DNA from: Psococerastis gibbosa
Lineage: Eukaryota; Arthropoda; Insecta; Psocodea; Psocidae
DNA: 64,000 nt
NCBI GenBank assembly: GCA_963971405.1
Contig: OZ020492.1
Coordinates: 19,932,204 to 19,996,203 of the forward strand
Direction of reading: 5' to 3'
The translations under genes and the position numbers were made by a program. Below, one piece after another: positions 5,875 through 51,250 of the stretch. The notes under the pieces are model-generated. The model saw only the letters and a program-made list of their open reading frames with translations, did no database searches and was not told where the DNA came from. The first letter of the stretch is position 1. The number at the start of each line of letters is the position of its first letter.

Positions 5875-6074
5875 NNNNNNNNNNNNNNNNNNNNNNNNNN
5901 NNNNNNNNNNNNNNNNNNNNNNNNNNNNNNNNNNNNNNNNNNNNNNNNNNNNNNNNNNNNNNNNNNNNNNNNNNNNNNNNNNNNNNNNNNNNNNNNNNNN
6001 NNNNNNNNNNNNNNNNNNNNNNNNNNNNNNNNNNNNNNNNNNNNNNNNNNNNNNNNNNNNNNNNNNNNNNNNNN
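5875..6074. other. Assembly gap, exactly 200 N
   Basis: A round-number run of N separates forward and reverse F1 fragments within intron 2 of unit B. The true length is unknown. Open frames called across it are artefacts. Confidence 0.95.
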
Positions 6075-8845: not shown

Positions 8846-9271
8846 TGTGGAGAAAAACCTTTCAAGTGTACAATCTGTACGAAGTGTTTCAGTCAAAGAA
8901 TTGATCGAGATAGGCACATGAGAATCCACACTGGAGAAAAACCTTTCACCTGCACAATCTGCACGAAGTGTTTCAGTCGAAGTTATGATCGAGATAGGCA
9001 CATGAGAATCCACACTGGAGAAAAACCTTTCAAGTGTACAATCTGCACGAAGTGTTTCAGACACGCCAGTTCTCTATTAGTACACACAAGAATCCATTCT
9101 GGAGAAAAACCTTTCACCTGCACAATCTGCTCGAAGAGTTTCCGTCAAAGTGCTGGTCTGATAATGCACACCAGAACCCATACTGGGGAAAAGTCTTTCG
9201 TCTGCGCGACCTGCTCTTGGTCTATTAATAAAAAAAGCAATTTAAAGGCTCACATGAGAACTCACGAATGA
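8846..9271 (+). CDS. Zinc-finger gene unit B, terminal exon with five C2H2 fingers
   Basis: The acceptor TTTCTTCATAG ends at 8845. The exon reads from TGT GGA GAA AAA to TGA at 9269-9271 (141 codons), in phase with exon 3. Five fingers follow C-x2-C-x12-H-x3-H with (T/S)GEKP linkers; the first three are CTICTKCF..., the fourth is CTICSKSF. In fingers 1 and 2 the usual helix leucine is replaced (DRDRH). Finger 5 has Ile in place of the core Phe (CSWSINKK) and may be weak. Contact positions differ between fingers and from units C and D, as expected for a diverging DNA-binding family. The product is probably a nuclear DNA-binding protein of about 240 residues with exons 1-3. An ATG-initiated version (8918) would lose finger 1, so I prefer the spliced model. 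Confidence 0.85.
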   Translation, partial: CGEKPFKCTICTKCFSQRIDRDRHMRIHTGEKPFTCTICTKCFSRSYDRDRHMRIHTGEKPFKCTICTKCFRHASSLLVHTRIHSGEKPFTCTICSKSFRQSAGLIMHTRTHTGEKSFVCATCSWSINKKSNLKAHMRTHE

Positions 9272-9790: not shown

Positions 9791-10916
9791 GGTAGAAAGT
9801 AGGCTATATAACAATAAATTATGTATTGACAGCGGCCTAGGATAGGCAACCTAAAAATTATTTATTATTAATTATTAAATTATTATAAAAAACTTCTCTT
9901 AATTTTTCCACTAATTGCAGTCAGAATGGGCTGATTTTCCCTATACAGCATATCTTAACCATAAAGTTAAGTAATTTGTGCCATAAATTTTGGTCACATT
10001 TAATTTCCTACATTTGTATCTTATTAAACTATATTGGATGCGGTATAATATTGTTATTTTAAACTAATTTTAGTCAGAATATGCATATTTTCTGTACACT
10101 GTATATCTGAACCAGCATTTTAGTGATATGTTTCATAACTTTTAGTCTCATTCCTTTCCTACATTTATGTGTTATTAAACTATAATGGATATTATATATT
10201 AATCCCGACAGTGATGTTGTATTTTCATTGTTCACTTTTACCCTGAACGCCTCAACGTCATTACTGTAGTAGGTGATTTTCCCCTTATCAATGGATTTAT
10301 GAAAATTCGGGAGTGATAGCTATTAGTCAGTATAGCCTACAAGTTTCGTCTGATCATGAAAAAGTTTGAGTTATATTGATAATAGGTGCAAGTAGCTGCG
10401 ATTAGGCCTAGACAAGTAGTGATACCTATCAAGGGCTATGGAAATTTGTAGAACCGTTCGAAATCAGCATTAGTGACTAGAGCATTCATCTAAGTACGGG
10501 AAGGCACAGGCTGTGGTGGATTTGGTGCAGGGGTGAGCACACCACCTTTGCAAGATGTGGACTGAAGTTCGATTCCCAGGTTTTTCATGTCTTCCTGTCT
10601 CTAATATAGAGGTTATATACAATGTCTAATAGGTACTTGATAATCGATCAATCATAGGAAATCATTTTCTTGGTCAAAACTATAGGTAAACATGTATTCA
10701 ATGACAGCTTTATGGTCTAAAACGACGCTTATTTGGATGTGCTGCATTAATAAAATAAAGGATATAATAAGTATAAAAAAAATAGTTATAATAACTTAAA
10801 ATCATTTTACTCTGCTTATACTAGTGCTTCGGGTACGGTATAGGAGCAAACCAATTTGAAAGCACCACTTTCTGTCCATCTGAATATATTTAAAATTCCT
10901 TAAAACTCCATTCAAT
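9791..10916. other. Spacer between units B and C
   Basis: No gene. 9840-10240 continues the downstream homology with unit A (541-850) and unit C (19450-19810). 10305-10650 is partly repeated at 15690-15880. Confidence 0.5.
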
Positions 10917-16804: not shown

Positions 16805-16910
16805 TTAACGTAGTCGGCCAGCAGGCAAAACACGTGTCAGGTCAGGCATAACTTCATCCTTCTGAGTAAATTCATCCACCGGTTGTAGTATGTTTTCTGT
16901 CATCTTCTTC

Positions 16911-16945
<35 letters not shown>

Positions 16946-17596
16946 GTAATGAAAATCATCATCATCGTCATGAAAATCATCATCCTCCTCATCAAGATCA
17001 TCATTATCATCAAGGTCACCATCGTCGTCATCAAGATCAATATCATCATCTTTATCAAGGTCATCATCGTCGTCGTCAAGATCAATATCATCGGCATCAA
17101 GATCAATATCATCATCATAATCATCATCATTATCAATATCAAGATCAATATCATCATCGTCATTGAGATCAATATCATCATCATTATCATCATCATGATC
17201 AATATCATCATCATTATCTTCGTCAAGATCAATGCCATCATCTATCTGTCGCCCTCGTCCAGAGCACATAATGGTCCCATGTCTTCCAGAACATCCCCTG
17301 CAAGACACTTGGGCCACACAATCGTTGGCTTTGTGATTAAGTTCTGTGCAAAATAAAGAGGCCCGCTTTCTCATCAAAATCAATTTCTCATCGAATTTTA
17401 TTAGTTCTATTTTGGGCAGTTTTAGATTGCATTTCCCGTCGCTTAATTGCCCACTTGGATTACCCTTACACAATCCAGTAAGGTTAACTTCTCTTGAGCA
17501 ACAACTCATTATCGTCTCTTGCCAATCATTGGCACTTTCATTCTCGCTACATATATCGTCTTCCCTCACTAACTCATCAGAAGCAAGCAAATTCAC
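16805..17596 (-). CDS. Gag-like protein with zinc knuckle and long Asp-rich tract
   Basis: 263 residues. KLPKIELIKFDE (about 59-70) resembles the start of the BEL/Pao gag core. Residues 83-111 (SLFCTELNHKANDCVAQVSC, then RGCSGRHGTIMC) are a Cys/His zinc-knuckle pair as in BEL/Pao gag. About 118-233 is almost all Asp with Ile/Leu, encoded by GAT/GAC repeats. This is a microsatellite that grew in frame inside the gene. The short end PDLTRVLPAGRLR follows. It is the only ORF of the LTR element. It probably coats RNA in virus-like particles supplied by a complete relative; that role is inferred. Confidence 0.65.
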
Positions 17597-17766
17597 AATA
17601 TTCTCGTCTAATTAAATGAGTTCTTCGCCTTTCATCGCAATTTTATTCGAAATTCTTCCCATTTCTCATCGTCATAGGCTTAATCTAAATGGCTTTGGTT
17701 ATCATCATTCGTAAGGCCCCTCTTTTTTTCTCAAACAATTAAGACTTGCCGTTCCGTCCATGGATG

Positions 17767-18572: not shown

Positions 18573-19010
18573 AGTGATGAGAGGAGCGGTACAAAACGAT
18601 TCGTCTGTACGGACTGCTCGAAGTGTTTCAGTAACAAAGGTAATCTGACAAAACACAGAATAATCCACTCTGGAGAAAAGCCTTACGTCTGTACAATGTG
18701 CTCGAAGAGTTTCAGTCAACGTAGTAGTGCAGAAAGGCACATGAGAATCCACACTGGTGAAAAGCCTTTCGTCTGTACGGACTGCTCGATGTGTTTCAAT
18801 AACAAAGGTAATCTAACAAATCACAGAATAATCCACACTGGAGAAAAGCCTTTCGCCTGTACAATCTGCTCGAAGAGTTTCATTCGAGGTGCTACTCTAA
18901 ATAGGCACATGGGAATCCACCTTAGGGAAAATCCGTTCGTTTGTGCGAACTGCTCGAGGTCTTTTGTGCATAAAAGCACATTAAAGGCTCACATGAGAAC
19001 TCACGAATGA
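18573..19010 (+). CDS. Zinc-finger unit C, terminal exon with five C2H2 fingers
   Basis: The acceptor TTTCTTCTTAG ends at 18572. The exon opens in phase 0 with SDERSGTKR and ends TGA at 19008-19010 (145 residues). Five fingers: CTDCSKCFSNKGNL, CTMCSKSFSQRSSA, CTDCSMCFNNKGNL, CTICSKSFIRGATL and CANCSRSFVHKSTL. Fingers 1 and 3 are near-duplicates. The linker before finger 5 is LRENP rather than TGEKP, a weak linker. Contact residues differ from units B and D, so binding specificity would differ. Its exon 3 partner at 13150 carries a frame defect towards exon 2. The frame of this exon itself is intact, so it may still be translated. Confidence 0.85.
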   Translation, partial: SDERSGTKRFVCTDCSKCFSNKGNLTKHRIIHSGEKPYVCTMCSKSFSQRSSAERHMRIHTGEKPFVCTDCSMCFNNKGNLTNHRIIHTGEKPFACTICSKSFIRGATLNRHMGIHLRENPFVCANCSRSFVHKSTLKAHMRTHE

Positions 19011-20070: not shown

Positions 20071-21071
20071 ATGGCTGACTTACGAGGGAGCAAAGAGGGC
20101 CGGGTGGTAGTAATTGCGCTGTTCAAATGTGGCCCACACTCCTAGCCAAATTTTCAAGATGCTCACTCCTCGGCTCTCCTCAAAAAAGTTTGTATATCGT
20201 ACCATCAAACGATACAATGAAACCCAAAGCATCCAAGACAGGAGAAAAACTGGACGCCCCCGGACAGTACGGACTCCAGCAGCCATCAAAGTGATCAGGG
20301 AGCGCACACGGCGAAAACCCACGGGTAATAAGAATGTGATGAGCCGGGAGACGAAGATATTGGCAAGAAACATTTGCCGTATCATCAGGAATGGCTTAGG
20401 CATGAAGACCTATCGTCGGTCAGTGGGCCATCTCCGTATGGCCCATTTGGAAGCAATGCGGCTGCGAAGAGCTAAGGCATTACTTTCATGGCACGCTCAA
20501 AATGGCCATGAAAACATCCTCTTCACAGACGAAAAAATTTTCCCTGTGGAAGAATATTTATATTTAATATTTGTGGTGATCCCAACGCGCCTTTTTGGCT
20601 TTGTGGCACCGGTTCAGTAAAATTTGTTTTGTTTTTTTGAGAAATACACGCATTATTATTAATTTTCTTTTGTCCCAAATAAGCGCTAGCTTGGGGATGC
20701 GGGATGGTATTATTGTGTATTGTATTTTTGTAATATATGCTCCTTGTCCAGGGAATACTGGACAGGGAAAAGAAAAAAAGAAAGATTTATTAAACGAAAA
20801 TAATGACAAGGTGTACGCAAGGACATCTCAAGAAGTGAAAAATGTTGTTCCGAGGATTATGCGAGGCCACCACCCAGCGTCAGTGATGGTTTGGTGGGGT
20901 GTGTTCTGCAAAGGCGTGACCGCGCTTCATTTCTGTGAAAAAGGCGTCAAAGCTTGCCAAAAAACTATACTTGAGCCAGTTGTGAAACCCCTTAGCGCTA
21001 CCTTATTTGACGACAAGCCCTGGGTCTTCCAGCAAGATTCTGGGCCAGCACACAGGGCAAAGAGTTCTTAA
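20071..21071 (+). pseudogene. Tc1/mariner-type transposase, frameshifted and interrupted
   Basis: Starts ATGGCTGACTTACGAGG (20071), shifts frame near 20114, then reads a helix-turn-helix region (SSKKFVYRTIKRYNET), the linker RRKTGRPRTVRT, and FTDEKIFPVEE (about 20526-20551, first catalytic Asp). After a foreign 245-bp stretch it resumes NDKVYARTSQEV, MVWWGVFCKGVTALHF and WVFQQDSGPAHRAKSS (second catalytic Asp). It then stops before the third acidic residue. It would cut and paste DNA if intact, but it has at least a frameshift, an insertion and a 3' truncation. Confidence 0.85.
20552..20796. mobile_element. Unidentified 245-bp insertion inside the transposase gene
   Basis: It separates VEE from NDKVYA, which are adjacent in related transposases. 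The sequence has AT-rich ends and no ORF or repeat partner I can see here. Boundaries are accurate to about 10 bp. It may be an intron-like or MITE insertion. Confidence 0.5.
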
Positions 21072-22044: not shown

Positions 22045-22195
22045 ACTGGCTATTTTTTCTGGCCATGCTTCGGAGGGCATGTAAAGCAGGCGGTCCCGGG
22101 TCATCCTAGTTTAGTGTAAGAGAGGGCTTCATACCCCTAACTCCGCTAGGTTGGCTTAGTAATAGAACATCAAAAAGTCAAGATATATTCTTTGT
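22045..22195 (+). mobile_element. tRNA-derived SINE, 5'-truncated
   Basis: Body CTGGCCATGCTTCGGAGGGCA ... GTCCCGGGTC ... CCCTAACTCCGCTAGGTTGG ending AATAGAACATC. The tail runs into a perfect hairpin. Confidence 0.75.
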
Positions 22196-22274
22196 TTCAC
22201 AGACCTATTACCTACATACATAGGCAATTGGTCTGTGAAACAAAGAATATATCTTGACTTTTTGATGTTCTATT
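22161..22274. repeat. Perfect 45-bp inverted repeat at SINE tail
   Basis: Left arm 22161-22205 and right arm 22230-22274 are exact reverse complements (AATAGAACATCAAAAAGTCA ... TTTCACAGACC), with a 24-bp loop. The left arm begins at the SINE 3' end, so a tail was copied in inverted orientation. Confidence 0.85.
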
Positions 22275-22299
22275 ACTTACATACACAGGCAGCCGGCCG

Positions 22300-22540
22300 C
22301 CTTACCAAGTTGAATCCAGCGGACTAGAGCAGGTTCAAAGATGCAGATAACTTGGTAGGTAGTGTGCACAGTGCCGGTAGGGAAACATGGTAGGACTTGT
22401 CCTGGTCACCTCCGAACTAATCATGTGACTTCACTGTGTTTCCCAAGTGGTTCGGAATCCACTATAATCAGGAGGTCCCCTGTCCTATGGGCCCACACCG
22501 TGGCCTGGGACTATGTCCAACCATACTACTACTACTACTA
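22300..22540 (+). mobile_element. Retroposon family F2, (TAC)n-tailed subfamily
   Basis: GTGCACAGTGCCGGTAGGGA ... CACTATAATCAGGAGGTCCC ... GTCCAACCATACTACTACTA. Other copies at 37500 and 50281; a related subfamily at 54140, 61085 and 62203. No tRNA-like head is visible, so it may be a SINE or a LINE 3' UTR. Confidence 0.65.
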
Positions 22541-23014
22541 CATACATAGGCCTACATACTTATACTACCAAAATAACTCATTGACATATTTTACTTATAT
22601 TTTATATTTTGGACTTGTAGTTTTGCCGGAAATCAAGATATAACGTATTTTAACCTTAAAAACCCACCCCCTACTACTTCCCAGCCTCAGACCGCCCGTA
22701 ATTTATTTATTCATATTATTATTTTACTCCAATTTTCTTTGGTTTCAAAAATTATCTGCCCTCGACTATTTAGCCGCAATTAATGTTATTTTGCATAACA
22801 CTCTAGCTACTATAATTTTTAAAACGAAAGAAAATTATAGTAAAATGAAACCCATTAGAAGCGGAAAATAATATGAAAAAATGAAATGATACATAAATTA
22901 CTGGCGATCTGAGGCCGGGAATTAGGAGGGGTTGGGCTTTTAAGGATGATATACGGTATACCTTGATTTCTGGCGAAACTACTAGTCCTATGGACTATGG
23001 ATTATGGATCAAAT
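22541..23014. other. Noncoding spacer
   Basis: Contains an imperfect inverted pair: AACCCACCCCCTACTACTTCC ... near 22660 and AATTAGGAGGGGTTGGGCTTT near 22920. This is likely a MITE of about 270 bp. No gene. Confidence 0.4.
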
Positions 23015-23179: not shown

Positions 23180-23188
23180 CCTAGATAT

Positions 23189-23261
23189 AGCCCTAACTCC
23201 GCTAGGTTGGCTTAGTAATAGAAACGACAAAAAGTCCTTATTGATTTATTTATTTATTTTA
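23189..23261 (+). mobile_element. SINE 3' end inserted at the end of the ataxin-7-like ORF
   Basis: AGCCCTAACTCCGCTAGGTT ... AAAAAGTCCTTATTGATTTATTTATTTATT is the SINE tail seen at 43540-43615. It abuts the last repeat block of the minus-strand ORF and supplies its stop codon. Confidence 0.75.
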
Positions 23262-26200
23262 GACCATGGGAAACAATGTTGGAGGACTACTAGGTATTTC
23301 AACCAAGAAAGAAATAGGTGAAATCGGCTTTAACACTGGCATTATAGGAGATGTAGGCCTGTAAGCAATTTGGATCTTTTTGCTGTTATTGGGTTCAACC
23401 TTCTTTGACCTGTTGGCCGTTTTTCTCTTCACAGCCCGTTTTCTACCATCAATTTTCTTAACTTTTTTCTCCGGCAACACGGGATCCAATGTTGGAGGAC
23501 TACTAGGTATATCAACCATGAAAGATATTGGTGAAATCGGCCGTAACACTGGCATTATAGGAGATGTAGGCTTGTAAGCAATTTGGTTCTTTTTCTTGTT
23601 ATTGGGTTCAACCTTCTTTGACGTGTTGGCCCTTTTTCTCTTCACAGCCCGTTTTCTACCATCAATTTTCTTAACGTCTTTCTCCGGCAACACGGGAACC
23701 AATGCTGGAGGACGACTAGGTATTTTAACCATGAAAGAAATAGGTGAAATCGGCTGTAACACTGGCATTATAGGAGATGTAGGCTTGTAAGTAATTTGGA
23801 TCTTTTTCTTGTTATTGGGTTCAACCTTCTTTGACCTGTTGGCTGTTTTTCTCTTCACAGCCCGTTTTCTACCATCAATTTTCTTAACTTTTTTCTCCGG
23901 CAGCACGGGAACCAATGTTGGAGGACTACTAGGTATTTCAACCATGGAAGAAATAGGTGAAGTCTGCTGTAACACTGGCATTATAGGAGATGTAGGCTTG
24001 TAAGTAATTTGGATCTTTTTCTTGTTATTGGGTTCAACCTTCTTTGACCTGTTGACCGTTTTTCTCTTCACAGCCCGTTTTGTACCATCAATTTTCTTAA
24101 TGTTTACAGCCCGTTTTCTGCCATCAATTTTCTTAATGTTTACAGCCCGTTTTCTACCATCAATTTTCTTAACTTTTTTCTCCGGCAGCACGGGAACCAA
24201 TGTTGGAGGACTACTAGGTATTTCAACCATGGAAGAAATAGGTGAAGGCGGCTGTAACACTGGCATTATAGGAGATGTAGGCTTGTAAGTAACTTGGATC
24301 TTTTTCTTGTTATTGGGTTCAACCTTCTTTGAACTGTTGGCCGTTTTTCTCTTCACAGCCCGTTTTGTACCATCAATTTTCTTAATGTTTACAGCCCGGT
24401 TTCTACCATCAATTTTCTTAATGTTTACAGCCCGTTTTCTGCCATCAATTTTCTTAATGCTTACAGCCCGTTTTCTACCATCAATTTTCTTAACTGTTTT
24501 CTCCGGCAGCACGGGAACCAATGTTGGAGGACTACTAGGTATTTCAACCATGGAAGAAATAGGTGTAGTCGGCTGTAACACTGGCATTACAGGAGATGTA
24601 GTCTTGTAAGTAATTTGAATCTTTTTCTTGTCATTGGGTCCAACCTTCTTTGACCTGTTGGCCGTTTTTCTCTTCACAGCCCGTTTTGAACCATCAATTT
24701 TCTTAATGTTTACAGCCTGTTTTCTACCATCAATTTTCTTAATGTTTACAGCCCGTTTTCTGCCATCAATTTTCTTAATGCTTACAGCTCGTTTTCTACC
24801 ATCAATTTTCTTAACTGTTTTCTCCGGCAGCACGGGAACCAATGTTGGAGGACTACTAGGTATTTCAACCATGGAAGAAATAGGTGTAGTCGGCTGTAAC
24901 ACTGGCATTACAGGAGATGTAGGCTTGTAAGTAATTTGGATCTTTTTCTTGTCATTGGGTCCAACCTTCTTTGACCTGTTGGCCGTTTTTCTCTTCACAG
25001 CCCGTTTTGAACCATCAATTTTCTTAATGTTTACAGCCCGTTTTCTACCATCAATTTTCTTAATGTTTACAGCCCGTTTTCTGCCATCAATTTTCTTAAT
25101 GTTTACAGCCCGTTTTCTACCATCAATTTTCTTAACTTTTTTCTCCGGCAGCACGGGAACCAATGTTGGAGGACTACTAGGTATTTCAACCATGGAAGAA
25201 ATAGGTGAAGTCGGCTGTAACACTGGCATTATAGGAGATGTAGGCTTGTAAGTAATTTGGATCTTTTTCTTGTTATTGGGTTCAACCTTCTTTGAACTGT
25301 TGGCCGTTTTTCTCTTCACAGCCCGTTTTGTACCATCAATTTTCTTAATGTTTACAGCCCGTTTTCTGCCATCAATTTTCTTAATGTTTACAGCCCGTTT
25401 TCTACCATCAATTTTCTTAACTTTTTTCTCCGGCAGCACGGGAACCAATGTTGGAGGACTACTAGGTATTTCAACCATGGAAGAAATAGGTGAAGTCGGC
25501 TGTAACACTGGCATTATAGGAGATGTAGGCTTGTAAGTAATTTGGATCTTTTTCTTGTTATTGGGTTCAACCTTCTTTGAACTGTTGGCCGTTTTTCTCT
25601 TCACAGCCCGTTTTGTACCATCAATTTTCTTAATGTTTACAGCCCGTTTTGTACCATCAATTTTCATAATGTTTACAGCCCGTTTTGTACCATCAATTTT
25701 CTTAATGTTTACAGCCCGTTTTGTACCATCAATTTTCTTAATGTTTACAGCCCGTTTTCTACCATCAATTTTTTTAACTTTTTTCTCCGGCAGCACGGGA
25801 ACCAATGTTGGAGGACTACTAGGTATTTCAACCATGGAAGAAATAGGTGAAGTCGGCTGTAACACTGGCATTATAGGAGATGTAGGCTTGTAAGTAATTT
25901 GGATCTTTTTCTTGTTATCGGGTTCAACCTTCTTTGACCTGTTTGCCGTTTTTCCCTTCAAAGCCCGTTTTGTACCATCAATTTTCTTAATGTTTGCAGC
26001 CCGTTTTCTACCATCAATTTTCTTAATGTTTACAGCCCGTTTTCTGCCATCAATTTTCTTAATGTTTTTCTCCGGCAAATTCTTTATGCCGTTACATTTT
26101 TTGGCAGCATTTATGCTTAGTTCGGCAACAGGCCGTGTATTTTCGCTTTCAGGGCCATGTTTCTCGCGTAAATGCCTATGAAGGGCATGCGGCATTATTG

Positions 26201-26447
26201 GACTGCTGCAAATGTGACAGACGACAAGAATGAATGGATCAGTTTCAGGGCACCTCCCGAAGATGAACATGTCCTTGCGAGGTAAACGTTTGGCGTGGCT
26301 GGGTCTGGGAGGCGAGACGATCTTTGAAATAAAGGGGCCAAAGGGCGCAGTGTCTGAATCATCCCTACTACCCTCCTCGTCGAATAAGGTCTCCCACGAC
26401 TGCCCAATCATGGGGTTCCGTTTCTCCCCGTTATTATCATTCGCCAT
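23259..26447 (-). CDS. Ataxin-7-like protein with nested 12-residue and 59-residue tandem repeats
   Basis: 1062 codons from ATG 26447. The N-terminus has the ataxin-7 signature: MIGQSWETLFDEE (about 13-25), then RKDMFIFGRCPETDPFILVVC and a zinc-finger-like Cys77-x2-Cys80-x11-His92-x4-His97. Ataxin-7/Sgf73 proteins anchor the deubiquitinase module to the SAGA coactivator in the nucleus. From residue 129 the protein is repeats: ten 59-residue blocks (KTANRSKKVEPNNKKKIQ, then Ser/Pro-rich TSPIMPVLQPTSPISS) preceded by 3,5,3,4,4,4,3,1,1,1 copies of KKIDGRKRAVNI. The repeats are very basic. The SCA7 box expected further along is absent. The frame ends FPMV* in a SINE tail. This may be the large first coding exon of a longer gene, or a truncated paralogue. 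Confidence 0.75.
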   Translation of the reverse strand: MANDNNGEKRNPMIGQSWETLFDEEGSRDDSDTAPFGPFISKIVSPPRPSHAKRLPRKDMFIFGRCPETDPFILVVCHICSSPIMPHALHRHLREKHGPESENTRPVAELSINAAKKCNGIKNLPEKNIKKIDGRKRAVNIKKIDGRKRAANIKKIDGTKRALKGKTANRSKKVEPDNKKKIQITYKPTSPIMPVLQPTSPISSMVEIPSSPPTLVPVLPEKKVKKIDGRKRAVNIKKIDGTKRAVNIKKIDGTKRAVNIMKIDGTKRAVNIKKIDGTKRAVKRKTANSSKKVEPNNKKKIQITYKPTSPIMPVLQPTSPISSMVEIPSSPPTLVPVLPEKKVKKIDGRKRAVNIKKIDGRKRAVNIKKIDGTKRAVKRKTANSSKKVEPNNKKKIQITYKPTSPIMPVLQPTSPISSMVEIPSSPPTLVPVLPEKKVKKIDGRKRAVNIKKIDGRKRAVNIKKIDGRKRAVNIKKIDGSKRAVKRKTANRSKKVGPNDKKKIQITYKPTSPVMPVLQPTTPISSMVEIPSSPPTLVPVLPEKTVKKIDGRKRAVSIKKIDGRKRAVNIKKIDGRKQAVNIKKIDGSKRAVKRKTANRSKKVGPNDKKKIQITYKTTSPVMPVLQPTTPISSMVEIPSSPPTLVPVLPEKTVKKIDGRKRAVSIKKIDGRKRAVNIKKIDGRNRAVNIKKIDGTKRAVKRKTANSSKKVEPNNKKKIQVTYKPTSPIMPVLQPPSPISSMVEIPSSPPTLVPVLPEKKVKKIDGRKRAVNIKKIDGRKRAVNIKKIDGTKRAVKRKTVNRSKKVEPNNKKKIQITYKPTSPIMPVLQQTSPISSMVEIPSSPPTLVPVLPEKKVKKIDGRKRAVKRKTANRSKKVEPNNKKKIQITYKPTSPIMPVLQPISPISFMVKIPSRPPALVPVLPEKDVKKIDGRKRAVKRKRANTSKKVEPNNKKKNQIAYKPTSPIMPVLRPISPISFMVDIPSSPPTLDPVLPEKKVKKIDGRKRAVKRKTANRSKKVEPNNSKKIQIAYRPTSPIMPVLKPISPISFLVEIPSSPPTLFPMV

Positions 26448-26451
26448 GTCG

Positions 26452-26485
26452 CTAAGGTCTTACCTGCAGAAAAAAAAAAAAAAAA
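26452..26485 (-). promoter_or_regulatory. Juxtaposed 3' and 5' splice signals upstream of the ataxin-7-like ATG
   Basis: The minus strand reads a run of T, then CTGCAG|GTAAGA, then CCTTAG, then CGAC-ATG. T(n)CAG|GTAAG is the motif of recursive (ratchet) splice sites. The following CCTTAG could be the final acceptor. Alternatively CTGCAG is a plain acceptor for the coding exon. Confidence 0.4.
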
Positions 26486-26526: not shown

Positions 26527-26970
26527 TATATACAGGGTGTGTCCGGAAAGTAATAGGACTGATTCGATTTAAAAAAAAAATGTATTGAGCCAATCGTTCC
26601 AATTCTTTAAAAACTTTAAAAGTAGACTCCTTCTGCGTCGATGCAGCGCTGCCAGCACGATTTCCAAGCATTAGAGGTGTCACGGAAGGAATTCTCCGGA
26701 ATTTCCTTTAGAGCCGCGGTGCGGTTTCAGGCGAGAAAACAAAAAGAAGTCCGGGGGACCACATCTGGGCTGTAGGCCGGCTGCTGAAGCGTTGGGGTGC
26801 CCTTGGTCAGGTAGCTGATCACATGAAAGGCGGTGTGAGCCGGGGCGTTGTCGTGGTGAACGTCCAGTCGGCTGCGATGTCTCGTCGGACCCGATTGACC
26901 CTTCGTTTGAGTCCCTTGAGCACTTCCACGTAAAATGTGCAATGAATAACTGACCCCATTTTATCTTTTG
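26527..26970 (-). pseudogene. Mariner remnant: transposase C-terminus and one terminal repeat
   Basis: The plus-strand left end is the mariner terminus CAGGGTGTGTCCGGAAAGTA (26534). Reading minus, pieces of the transposase lie in shifting frames: FYVEVLKGLKRRVNRVR, DNAPAHTAFHVISYL with PAYSPDVVP (catalytic region), and SNAWKSCWQRCIDAEGVYF with stop. At least two frameshifts and loss of the 5' half make it inactive. It lies just upstream of the ataxin-7-like gene on the same strand. Confidence 0.85.
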
Positions 26971-35023: not shown

Positions 35024-35693
35024 CTAAACAAAGTTACGAAATCAAAAATATGAAAACCTTTTATTTGATATGTGACGTCACTATCTGTCACAGTTCACGA
35101 GAATTCTCCACAGATATTAATATTATACTACCTTAACATACACAATAAATAAACAAATCTTGACTTTTTGTTGTTCGACTACTAAGTCAACCTAGCGGAG
35201 TTAGGGCTGTAAAGCCCTCTCTTACACTCAACTAGGATGACCTGGGACCGCCTGCTTTACATGCCCTCCGAAGAAAATGTAGCCAGTGTGGGACTCGTAT
35301 TACCCGTAGTCTACATTGGTACCAACAGCAACATACCAGTTTATATTTATACATAGGGACTAATAACGAATTTCATTAGTAGGTACAAATTTGATGCTAT
35401 AAATAATATACAAAAATATAATATAATGAATGCCCAGTGGAAAATTAAAACAAAACAAATCAAGGATGCGAAATTAAACAAATAAATAACATTTAAAAAT
35501 GGCGTGCGTACTTGATTTTTTACTATCTTCTTGAAAATATGTTTCAAATTTAGGTTTTAGTGACAGTTTCATAATTTGTAAAAAAAAATTTAAATTTAAA
35601 AATAAATTGTATTCCCATGAATATTTAATTTGATATCTAAATATTTACAAAATAAACTAACTTGAGCTCTGTTGTTAAAAGGAAAGTGGACGG
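35024..35693. other. Spacer with SINE on the minus strand
   Basis: 35160-35330 is the tRNA-derived SINE in reverse (GCCCTAACTCCGCTAGG, TGACCTGGGACCGCCTGC). The remainder is AT-rich with no gene. Confidence 0.55.
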
Positions 35694-37499: not shown

Positions 37500-37710
37500 C
37501 AAAGCCGGCCGGTTCAAAGATGCAGATAACTTGGTAGTGAGCACAGTGCCGGTAGGGAAACATGGTAGGACTTGTCCTGGTTACCTCCGAACTAATCGTG
37601 TGACTTCGCTGTGTTTCCCAAGTGGTTCGGAATCCACTATAATCAGGAGGTCCCTGTCGTATGGGCCCACACCGTGGCCTGGGACTGTGTCCAACCATAC
37701 TACTACTAAG
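37500..37710 (+). mobile_element. Retroposon F2 copy, (TAC)n-tailed
   Basis: GTTCAAAGATGCAGATAACT ... GTGCCGGTAGGGAAACATGG ... AACCATACTACTACTAAG. Short flanking AAGTGACGCCAGT repeats at 37480 and 37713 look like a target duplication (AGTGACGCCAGT). Confidence 0.75.
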
Positions 37711-42550: not shown

Positions 42551-43904
42551 GTATACCCTAATTTATAGACACACACTTGAGAACTCATATATTTTACAGA
42601 AAGAAAATATTAGTGAGACTGTTGAAACTGCACCTATAAAAGCGGTTACTAAAGCAGCTATAATAGACCAATTTTAATTAAATCCAACTATAATAAACGT
42701 GATATAATACATTATTGGAGGCCCCGGATAGGCGTAGATCGCCGATTCGAATCCCGCCAAGTTCAGTTTTTTCTAAATCCTCTAATTTCAGCATGAGTCA
42801 TTTAATGATTTATTTGTCTCAAAAGTTATTAAAAACAATTTTACCATAAATATTAGACTAGTAACAATTTTTTTTTTTAAATAATATGAATGTTGGCTAT
42901 ATTTTGGTCATGGCAATGTGCTGTCCCCCCCCCTCCCTTGTTACGCTAGTGGGTACCTTTACCCTTTATTAATATTTATTTATTATTATTATTTATTTAT
43001 GTTTACAAAAATAGTCAAAGAACGACCGTTCGTTCGGGTAATAATTTTCATTATTTAAAAGAGTACGATACACATCTTGGAATATCGACTTCAATAGCAA
43101 GGTGGTAGCGTGCTTGTATTGTACTTATGTGAGTCTCTACACGCCATGCGATCGGAGACGTGTCGTAACTCCACACGGGTACTAACCTACATAGGCGACT
43201 GAAGAAGTTAATCGGATACATTCACTAAATTGTTTGCATGCCATTAATCTTTTAAAAAAAAGAAAAAAAACAGTCCAGGACATAATATTCTGGAGTAGGC
43301 TTCGTTGTTATCGCTGCCAATTATTAATTAATTATTTAATCCGTAATGTTGCTAAATATAAAATAAATGACACACTGTATTGTAGTTTGTAGTTCCAACA
43401 AAATTGAGTAATAAATTGCAATAATAATGGATAAGAGTCTGCTATAATCCCATAGACTGGCTACATTTTCTGGCCATGCTTCGGAGGGCATGTAAAGCAG
43501 GCGGTCCCGGGCCTTCCTAGTTGAGTGTGAGAGAGGGCATTATAGCCCTAACTCCGCTAGGTTGGCTTAGTAATAGAAACAATAAAAAGTCCTCATTTAT
43601 TTTATTTATTTATTTATAGACGATAATACCGTATATACGTAATTAGCAATAATATTCTTGAAAATGATGCCCTTAATAAATAATGCAGTTCATACCACAT
43701 CAAAGCACGTTTAACAACGCCCCCAATTTCTTTATGTCATATTTGAGAACAATAAATAAATAAATAATAAATAAATAAGGACTTTTTATTGTTTCTATTA
43801 CTAAGCCAACCTGGCGGAGTTAGGGCTATAAAGCCCTCTCTTACACTCAACTAGGATGGCCCTATAGTCAATTTCAATACCTCACAGCTAATTTTTCTTC
43901 TCAG
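42551..43904 (+). other. Intron of unit D with SINE insertions
   Basis: A tRNA-like box CGATTCGAATCCCGCC lies near 42750. 43457-43615 is a plus-strand SINE flanked by ATAGAC (43451-43456 and 43616-43621). 43755-43860 is a reverse SINE 3' part. The remaining sequence matches the unit B intron up to the acceptor TTTTTCTTCTCAG at 43904. Confidence 0.65.
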
Positions 43905-44426
43905 TGTGGAGAGAAAAGCGGTACACAGCGTTTCGCATGTCCCAACTGCTCGAAGTGTTTCAATAGAAGAAGAGCTCTAGAGACACACATGAGAATCCAC
44001 ACTGGAGAAAAGCCTTACGTCTGTACGACATGCTCAAAGTCTTTTAACCAGCTAGCACATCTAACGACTCACATGAGAATCCATACTGGAGAGAAGCCTT
44101 ACGCCTGTAAACTCTGCTCCAAGTCTTTCAGAGCCAGTTGGGGCCTAACGTGTCACATGAGAACTCATAAGGCGGAAAAACTTTTCGCTTGTACGACATG
44201 CTCAAAGTCTTTTAAACAGCTAGCATATCTAACGACTCACATGAGAATCCATACAGGAGAGAAGCCTTACGCCTGTAAACTCTGCTCCAAGTCTTTCAGA
44301 GCCACTTGGGGCCTAACGTGTCACATGAGAAGTCATAGGGCGGAAAAGCCTTTCGCTTGTACGACATGCTTCAGGTCTTTTAAATATAAATTCAATCTAA
44401 AGGAACACATGAAAATTCACGAATGA
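43905..44426 (+). CDS. Zinc-finger unit D, terminal exon with six C2H2 fingers
   Basis: Acceptor TTCTTCTCAG ends 43904. The exon opens in phase 0 ([10 protein letters not shown]) and ends TGA at 44426 (173 residues). Fingers: [84 protein letters not shown]. Fingers 2-3 and 4-5 are a tandem duplication of a 56-residue two-finger unit. Linkers after fingers 3 and 5 are KAEKL and RAEKP instead of TGEKP. The predicted nuclear DNA-binding role rests on the fingers alone. The reading frame is intact. Confidence 0.88.
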
Positions 44427-50280: not shown

Positions 50281-50520
50281 ACTCTTAGCCGACCGCCTTA
50301 CTAAGTTGAATCCAGTGGACCAGAGCAGGTTCAAAGATGCAGATAACTTGGTAGTGTGCACAGTGCCGGTAGGGAAACATGGTAGGACTTGTCCTGGTCA
50401 CCTCCGAACTAATCGTGTGACTTCACTGTGTTTCCCAAGTTCGGAATCCACTATAATCAGGAGGTCCCCTGTCCTATGGGCCCACACCGTGGCCTGGGAC
50501 TGTGTCCAACCATACTACTA
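50281..50520 (+). mobile_element. Retroposon F2 copy, (TAC)n-tailed
   Basis: GACCGCCTTACTAAGTTGAA ... GTGCACAGTGCCGGTAGGGA ... CCAACCATACTACTACTACC. It is inserted in a LINE: CTACTACCACAAACTCTT occurs on both sides (50268-50285 and 50517-50534). Confidence 0.75.
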
Positions 50521-51250
50521 CTACCACAAACTCTTCATCCCCTCACCTTCACCACTTGCAGACTAATAAAATCAAGTGTCAAGAACGCGACCAGAGATGC
50601 CTGGAAATGAGAGCAGCTGGCAAACGATGGGAACCACTCCTAGCAAAAACCATCCCCAGCAACTTGCGCCAGGACATCGCTGTGTCAGCGTTCCGAATGT
50701 CCACAAAACTCAACTACCTCCATATGATGATGACCTAGTAAGGCAATGCCAGTCTAGACTCCTGGAGCTACAAACCATCTCAGATATCCACCTACAATGG
50801 GTCCTTGGCCATTGTGACACCCGTGCGAACGAGGAGGCTGACAAACAAGCAAAGGCAAACTGCAACCTCTACATTCCCTCACCTTCTCCACTACTTGCAG
50901 GCTAATACATGCAAATGCTAAGCACGCAAACAGAGATGCCTGGAAAGTGAGAGCAGCTGGCAAACGATGGGAACCGCTCCTAGCAAAAACCATCCTCAGC
51001 AACTTGCGCCGGGACATCGCTGAGCCAGCGTTCCGAATGGCCACAGGACATGACTACCTTCAGAGCCACCTCCACAGAAAAGGTGTATCTGATTCATCCG
51101 AATCCAAGGGGAAGGAAACGCCGAACACCTATTCAGATGCAATGTCAACTACGACACAGGATCTCTGCTATGCTCTTGTATGCGACACGGCGTAAAAGGC
51201 CTAACAGCCAAGGACGGACGTTGGCTGAAGGAGATGAAGAAACTCTCACT
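50521..51250 (+). pseudogene. Two overlapping LINE fragments (RNase H tail and C-terminal domain)
   Basis: 50735-50867 reads RLLELQTISDIHLQWVLGHC, DTRANEEADKQAK, the end of an RNase H domain. 50525-50719 and 50870-51170 are two copies of the following region (AAGKRWEPLLAKTI, FRMATGHDYLQSHLHRKGV), matching the minus-strand fragment at 54192-54500. The duplication and frameshifts show it is dead. Confidence 0.75.

Follow-up and report, generated by a model that had tools for sequence, protein, structure and literature searches.

We asked what kind of gene lies on the minus strand of a 64,000-nucleotide stretch of the Psococerastis gibbosa genome (contig OZ020492.1; the whole stretch analysed is called the window), in which an N-terminus resembling ataxin-7 runs without interruption into a long, two-level tandem repeat, and whether this open frame represents a working gene, one exon of a larger gene or a decaying fragment. 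The minus-strand open reading frame (ORF) extends from 26447 to 23259 and comprises 1062 codons, with an ataxin-7-like head and a ten-block array in one frame. In the array, approximately 88% of the ORF, each block combines 59 fixed residues with 1-5 copies of the 12-residue unit KKIDGRKRAVNI (29 units in total), laid out as LPEK-x-V, then n KKIDGRKRAVNI-type units, then KRKTANRSKKVEPNNKKKIQITYKPTSPIMPVLQPTSPISSMVEIPSSPPTLVPV, with n = 3, 5, 3, 4, 4, 4, 3, 1, 1 and 1 in blocks 1-10. Block lengths are thus 71, 95, 107 or 119 amino acids (213, 285, 321 or 357 bp), and Tandem Repeats Finder reports these same four periods together with one of 36 bp. Coordinates, strand, protein length, block and unit counts and block lengths had all been given in an initial annotation and were recovered unchanged on recomputation. 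The features of the locus, in the direction of the gene, are as follows:

26464..26485, minus strand: putative 3' splice site, 16 nt before the ATG (T16, CTGCAG), from a reading of the sequence
26064..26447, minus strand: ataxin-7-like head, residues 1-128, from phmmer, shuffles and alignment
25794..26078, minus strand: block 1, 3 units
25437..25793, minus strand: block 2, 5 units
25152..25436, minus strand: block 3, 3 units
24831..25151, minus strand: block 4, 4 units
24510..24830, minus strand: block 5, 4 units
24189..24509, minus strand: block 6, 4 units
23904..24188, minus strand: block 7, 3 units
23691..23903, minus strand: block 8, 1 unit, diverged
23478..23690, minus strand: block 9, 1 unit, diverged
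23262..23477, minus strand: block 10, 1 unit, shortened at the SINE-like junction, C-terminal ...FPMV
23259..23261, minus strand: stop codon TAA, within the SINE-like tail
23186..23262, plus strand: short copy of a SINE-like repeat that also occurs at other places in the window, with (TTTA)n at its end

The frame is open throughout, as had been claimed: its 1062 codons contain no stop, while the other five frames contain 14-128 over the same stretch (45 and 128 in the other two minus frames; 36, 14 and 83 in the plus frames). Coding on the plus strand is ruled out by the 14-83 stops in every plus frame. The chance that 199 independent codons (the head plus one block) would remain open is about 4e-7, a rough figure that uses the single-base composition of the 5' flank; the nine further blocks are copies and so add little independent evidence.

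The head was then compared with known ataxin-7 proteins. Residues 13-104 matched human Ataxin-7 (PDB chain 7ktr_N) with a phmmer E-value of 1.2e-7 (35 bits), and a Smith-Waterman alignment of the head to the human protein scored 121, against a maximum of 52 among 1000 shuffles, none of which attained half of the head's score. The aligned head is 37% identical to the human sequence and shares with it the motifs MxGQSW, DMxIFGxCPxxDxFxLVVCxxC and HxxxxH; GQSW occupies residues 15-18, and the zinc ligands C77, C80, H92 and H97 align with the human CCHH finger at identical spacing. Judged against the human protein, the ataxin-7 trait of an N-terminal deubiquitinase-module segment with a GQSW-type motif plus a CCHH finger is present, and the ataxin-7 N-terminus proposed in the initial annotation is borne out by the phmmer match, the shuffle test and the aligned motifs. 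Yeast Sgf73 was not reached by the head in PDB sequence searches (E = 1 with phmmer, E = 10 with a two-sequence profile), and the only Pfam match was OrsD, at 24.6 bits under a cut-off of 26.6, so that family membership rests on the human protein. These two results also suit an alternative that makes the head a single generic C2H2-type finger instead of ataxin-7, at the front of an unrelated repeat protein; given the similarity to human ataxin-7 across residues 13-104 and the distance between 121 and the best shuffle, we regard this alternative as highly improbable. No relative of the head was found among 55 candidates of a protein collection that is seemingly animal-poor, a negative that says little, and the predicted structure of the head was uninformative (pLDDT 40.8).

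The equivalent of this head in ataxin-7/Sgf73 is the portion that goes into the deubiquitinase module of SAGA, a large complex that activates genes, and the head would be expected to bind zinc and to enter the module likewise. According to the accessible portions of PMC8080568, the minimal deubiquitinase module contains Sgf73 residues 1-104, the SCA7 domain is reported to bind nucleosomes, the module is able to act separately from SAGA, and in Drosophila it is stable without ataxin-7. An extra head therefore need not matter. The accessible portion of PMC8987156 describes the ataxin-7 N-terminus as intertwined with the deubiquitinase module and the C-terminus as tethering the module to SAGA.

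At the 5' end, the minus strand reads T16-CTGCAG|GTAAGACCTTAGCGAC-ATGG. An in-frame TAA at 26460-26462 lies upstream of the ATG at 26447, which makes this ATG the likely start, and a non-coding upstream 5'UTR exon is likely. The same CAG|GTAAGA spot also reads as a donor-like 5' splice site, and its use as a donor would place the ATG in an intron; because of the T tract, we prefer to read 26464-26485 as an acceptor. Just upstream of the gene, positions 26540-26960 have the look of a mariner-type element remnant, judged by eye.

At the 3' end, block 10 ceases to match the other blocks at about 23265. The sequence between that point and 23186 belongs to a repeat family, with 92% identity to 43541-43624, 93% to 43830-43758, and weaker matches near 35211, 22131, 59324 and 58862. 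The two best copies terminate in TTTA/TTA-type runs, which on the strand of the gene appear here as TAAAATAAATAAATAAAT. The first TAA of this SINE-like tail serves as the stop codon, and three overlapping AATAAA motifs follow directly on the minus strand. The element at the junction would be a shortened SINE lying antisense to the gene.

Further repeats occupy the neighbouring sequence. Positions 22158-22277 form a near-perfect inverted repeat (57-nt arms, 96%, 6 nt apart), one arm of which overlaps the SINE-like match at 22131-22179; 22291-22538 is a repeat with 94% copies at 50287-50527 and 37508-37708; and 22611-22988 is an element with 100-nt inverted arms (84%), probably MITE-like. Two ORFs in different frames at 20114-21071 resemble, by eye, a broken Tc1/mariner-type transposase; the first has weak helix-turn-helix Pfam matches under the cut-off, and the second has none. 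Elsewhere in the window there are a C2H2 zinc-finger ORF (43824-44426), two arrays with the 84-bp finger period (8848-9199 and 18600-18964), an open minus-strand frame that encodes a long Asp-rich repeat and matches no Pfam family (16808-17611), and a tRNA-Cys (gca) at 10514-10588, the sole tRNA called by ARAGORN in a window that also has tRNA-like repeats. A gap of exactly 200 N at 5875-6074 looks like a scaffolding default, so the assembly was probably scaffolded. An Rfam scan gave 0 matches, and a scan for bacterial-type promoters and terminators, inapplicable to an animal gene, found about as many sites as in shuffles.

The second zinc-binding domain, SCA7, which we take to be Pfam PF08313, was absent from the ORF by Pfam. 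Two core motif patterns of an SCA7-like stretch had no match in any of the six frames of the 64-kb window, tblastn of the human SCA7 domain against the window gave nothing better than E = 1.5, and a C-terminal piece of human ATXN7 gave a best E of 0.71. Since no SCA7 domain was found within the window, we speak of an ataxin-7-like head rather than of an ataxin-7; this result, together with the stop and AATAAA motifs in the SINE-like tail, makes the gene look truncated at its 3' end, provided that no exons follow at a distance of over 23 kb. Such distant exons are what another gene model supposes. In it, the species' normal ataxin-7 gene begins its coding part with this ORF as one large exon and has its SCA7 exons more than 23 kb downstream, while the array's end is spliced out or belongs to an isoform. 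Long introns would be in keeping with the repeat-rich sequence, and donor-like GCT|GTAAGC sites occur inside blocks 5 and 6, but these donors are weak and arise with a unit change of AAC to AGC (N to S) relative to the other copies, the ORF reaches a stop with AATAAA motifs immediately after it, and 23 kb of downstream sequence carries no SCA7 match; we consider the model unlikely.

How the array evolved was examined by comparing blocks over a 192-nt core. The mean number of differing sites is 7.1 for neighbouring blocks and 10.2 for non-neighbours, and a neighbour mean this low arose in 35 of 10,000 permutations, which backs the earlier proposal of recent unequal exchange or conversion. The companion statement that adjacent blocks are nearly identical holds for pairs 2/3 (0 differences) and 4/5 (2), but not for 5/6 (10), 8/9 (13) or 9/10 (14), and the non-neighbouring blocks 2 and 6 have only 2 differences. 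Average identity is 97% among blocks 1-7 and 93% among blocks 8-10. The pattern, from which single pairs depart, fits an array that unequal exchange or conversion has shaped and whose 3' edge has diverged, and the locus shows the features of a coding minisatellite: a period divisible by three, an open frame, neighbours that are closer on average, and a diverged edge. Because both periods are multiples of three, unequal exchange alters the length of the array and keeps its frame, and the open frame can be explained, on this periodicity, by such exchange.

The initial annotation had further held that selection probably keeps the frame, and this the substitutions do not show. Distinct changes from the block consensus, each counted once and leaving out the block 10 residues past codon 54 of the fixed part, amount to 51 events: 41 replacement (N), 10 silent (S) and 0 stops, each two-hit codon being compared with the consensus one base at a time (AGA vs. 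TCA counting as N via ACA). Neutral expectation is 36-39 N (P = 0.10-0.29 for at least 41) and 1.3-2.2 stops (P = 0.10-0.27 for zero). In this dN/dS-type comparison between blocks, replacements are as common as under neutrality, and the deficit of replacements between copies expected of purifying selection does not appear. The one hint of constraint comes from frameshifts: none was found beside approximately 51 substitution events, with P from 0.11 to 0.0002 at an assumed indel:substitution ratio of 0.05-0.2. Pairwise pN/pS, from pairs that are not independent, was 1.70 in the fixed part, where it takes in a few block 10 codons at the SINE-like junction, and 0.57 in the 12-residue units, where it is weighted by two widespread silent variants, GGT/GGC (6/29) and GTA/GTG (10/29). 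The reading frame may therefore be kept, yet the amino-acid sequence is without clear purifying selection.

Neutral-like divergence of this kind also suits a pseudogene, the main rival to the reading that we favour, in which a copy of ataxin-7 was severed by mobile elements and its young array, grown from an open unit, is open for lack of time to gather stops. Besides the lack of a silent excess and an absence of stops that chance would allow, this account draws on the SINE-like sequence in which the ORF ends, the multi-copy repeats and inverted-repeat elements downstream, and the SCA7 domain not found within the window. Set against it are the missing frameshifts (with the dependence on the assumed indel ratio given above), the GQSW motif and four zinc ligands, all intact, the splice-acceptor-like sequence that precedes the start codon, and the pN/pS of 0.57 in the 12-residue units, again from non-independent pairs; on balance, we find decay a doubtful explanation.

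What the array would contribute to a protein can be judged in part from its composition. Its 933 residues have a pI of 11.1, with 246 K+R, 60 D+E, 29 S/T-P sites and no cysteine, a composition compatible with the chromatin or RNA scaffold suggested previously. A YKPTSPI-type heptad is present in 10/10 blocks (7 exact, 3 as V, T or R variants) and is surrounded by basic KKIDGRKRAV patches. The heptad of the RNA polymerase II CTD is YSPTSPS, which the repeat heptad resembles; the latter may be phosphorylatable, is one ancestral motif copied ten times, and may owe its likeness to chance. A structural model of block 8, from an alignment of eight other blocks without block 10, was weak (pLDDT 64.7, pTM 0.12) and is compatible with disorder; DSSP gave no assignment for it, possibly through program failure.

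Pfam matched the array to ASH (49.7 bits vs. a cut-off of 27) and to CFAP65, Cep192, TMEM131L and Filamin (30.9-41.2 bits), above whole-protein cut-offs. As none of the individual stretches gets past E = 0.1, we take these Ig-like matches to be repeat artefacts, weak scores summed over copies. The idea that the block derives from the linker of ataxin-7 was rejected, as block 8, aligned locally with the human linker, scored 35, a value reached by 435/1000 shuffles; block 8 against the SCA7 region (762/1000 shuffles as high) and block 2 against the linker plus SCA7 (168/1000) were also compared. No relatives of the array were found among the best 7991 candidates of the protein collection or in viral contigs, negatives that say little in collections seemingly poor in animal sequence. 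A search for array- or head-like DNA elsewhere in the window gave at best a 16-base match (blastn E = 0.011; tblastn E = 0.63).

Taken together, we favour, with a probability of roughly 0.45, the reading that the locus is a truncated ataxin-7-family copy, most likely a paralogue, with a basic coding minisatellite as its C-terminal tail. The head would retain what is, in ataxin-7/Sgf73, the segment threaded into the SAGA deubiquitinase module; a 71-residue segment behind it would have been amplified in tandem, and the 36-bp unit amplified again within blocks. The 3' end of the array abuts a SINE-like tail, the source of the stop and the poly(A)-type motifs, at the place where ataxin-7 would continue to SCA7. 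If translated, the product would be approximately 118 kDa, its head could join the deubiquitinase module, and its lysine-rich tail could bind nucleic acid or chromatin loosely and multivalently. Lacking SCA7 and normal SAGA anchoring, such a protein might serve as a free or decoy adaptor of the module. For this reading we infer expression, paralogue status, zinc binding and module entry by the head, and disorder and binding of the tail. A bolder version, which we think improbable, is a neofunctionalised paralogue that kept the docking head and swapped SCA7 and the anchoring parts for an exchange-tuned repeat tail, a multivalent chromatin or RNA tether that would draw the H2B deubiquitinase off SAGA.

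Several known systems resemble parts of this locus. With ataxin-7/Sgf73 it has in common the N-terminal GQSW segment and the CCHH finger at the same spacing, but no SCA7 was found within the window and a basic array of 933 residues lies behind the head. Coding minisatellites of insects, such as those of bumblebees, are likewise in-frame tandem repeats within genes, and the accessible part of PMC6286909 reports the bumblebee repeats as length-variable and mostly in genes of transcriptional regulation; the present array, read in one assembly, differs in having two nested levels, in making up approximately 88% of its ORF and in standing behind an ataxin-7 head. Polyglutamine-expanded human ATXN7 is also a repeat expansion inside an ataxin-7-family protein, although there CAG triplets lie before the finger, whereas here units of 12 and 71 residues lie behind it, and the comparison implies no disease link. 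The open-access literature searched, represented mostly by titles and the openings of abstracts, yielded no ataxin-7 with such a repeat.

Were the locus a pseudogene, it would be a neat yet ordinary case of in-frame array growth. If it is expressed, it would amount to a natural experiment that parts the deubiquitinase docking of ataxin-7 from its chromatin binding and SAGA anchoring, it would provide a repeat-expanded ataxin-7-family protein outside the polyglutamine setting, and it would show how a conserved nuclear subunit can acquire a new tail from a coding minisatellite and a mobile-element stop.
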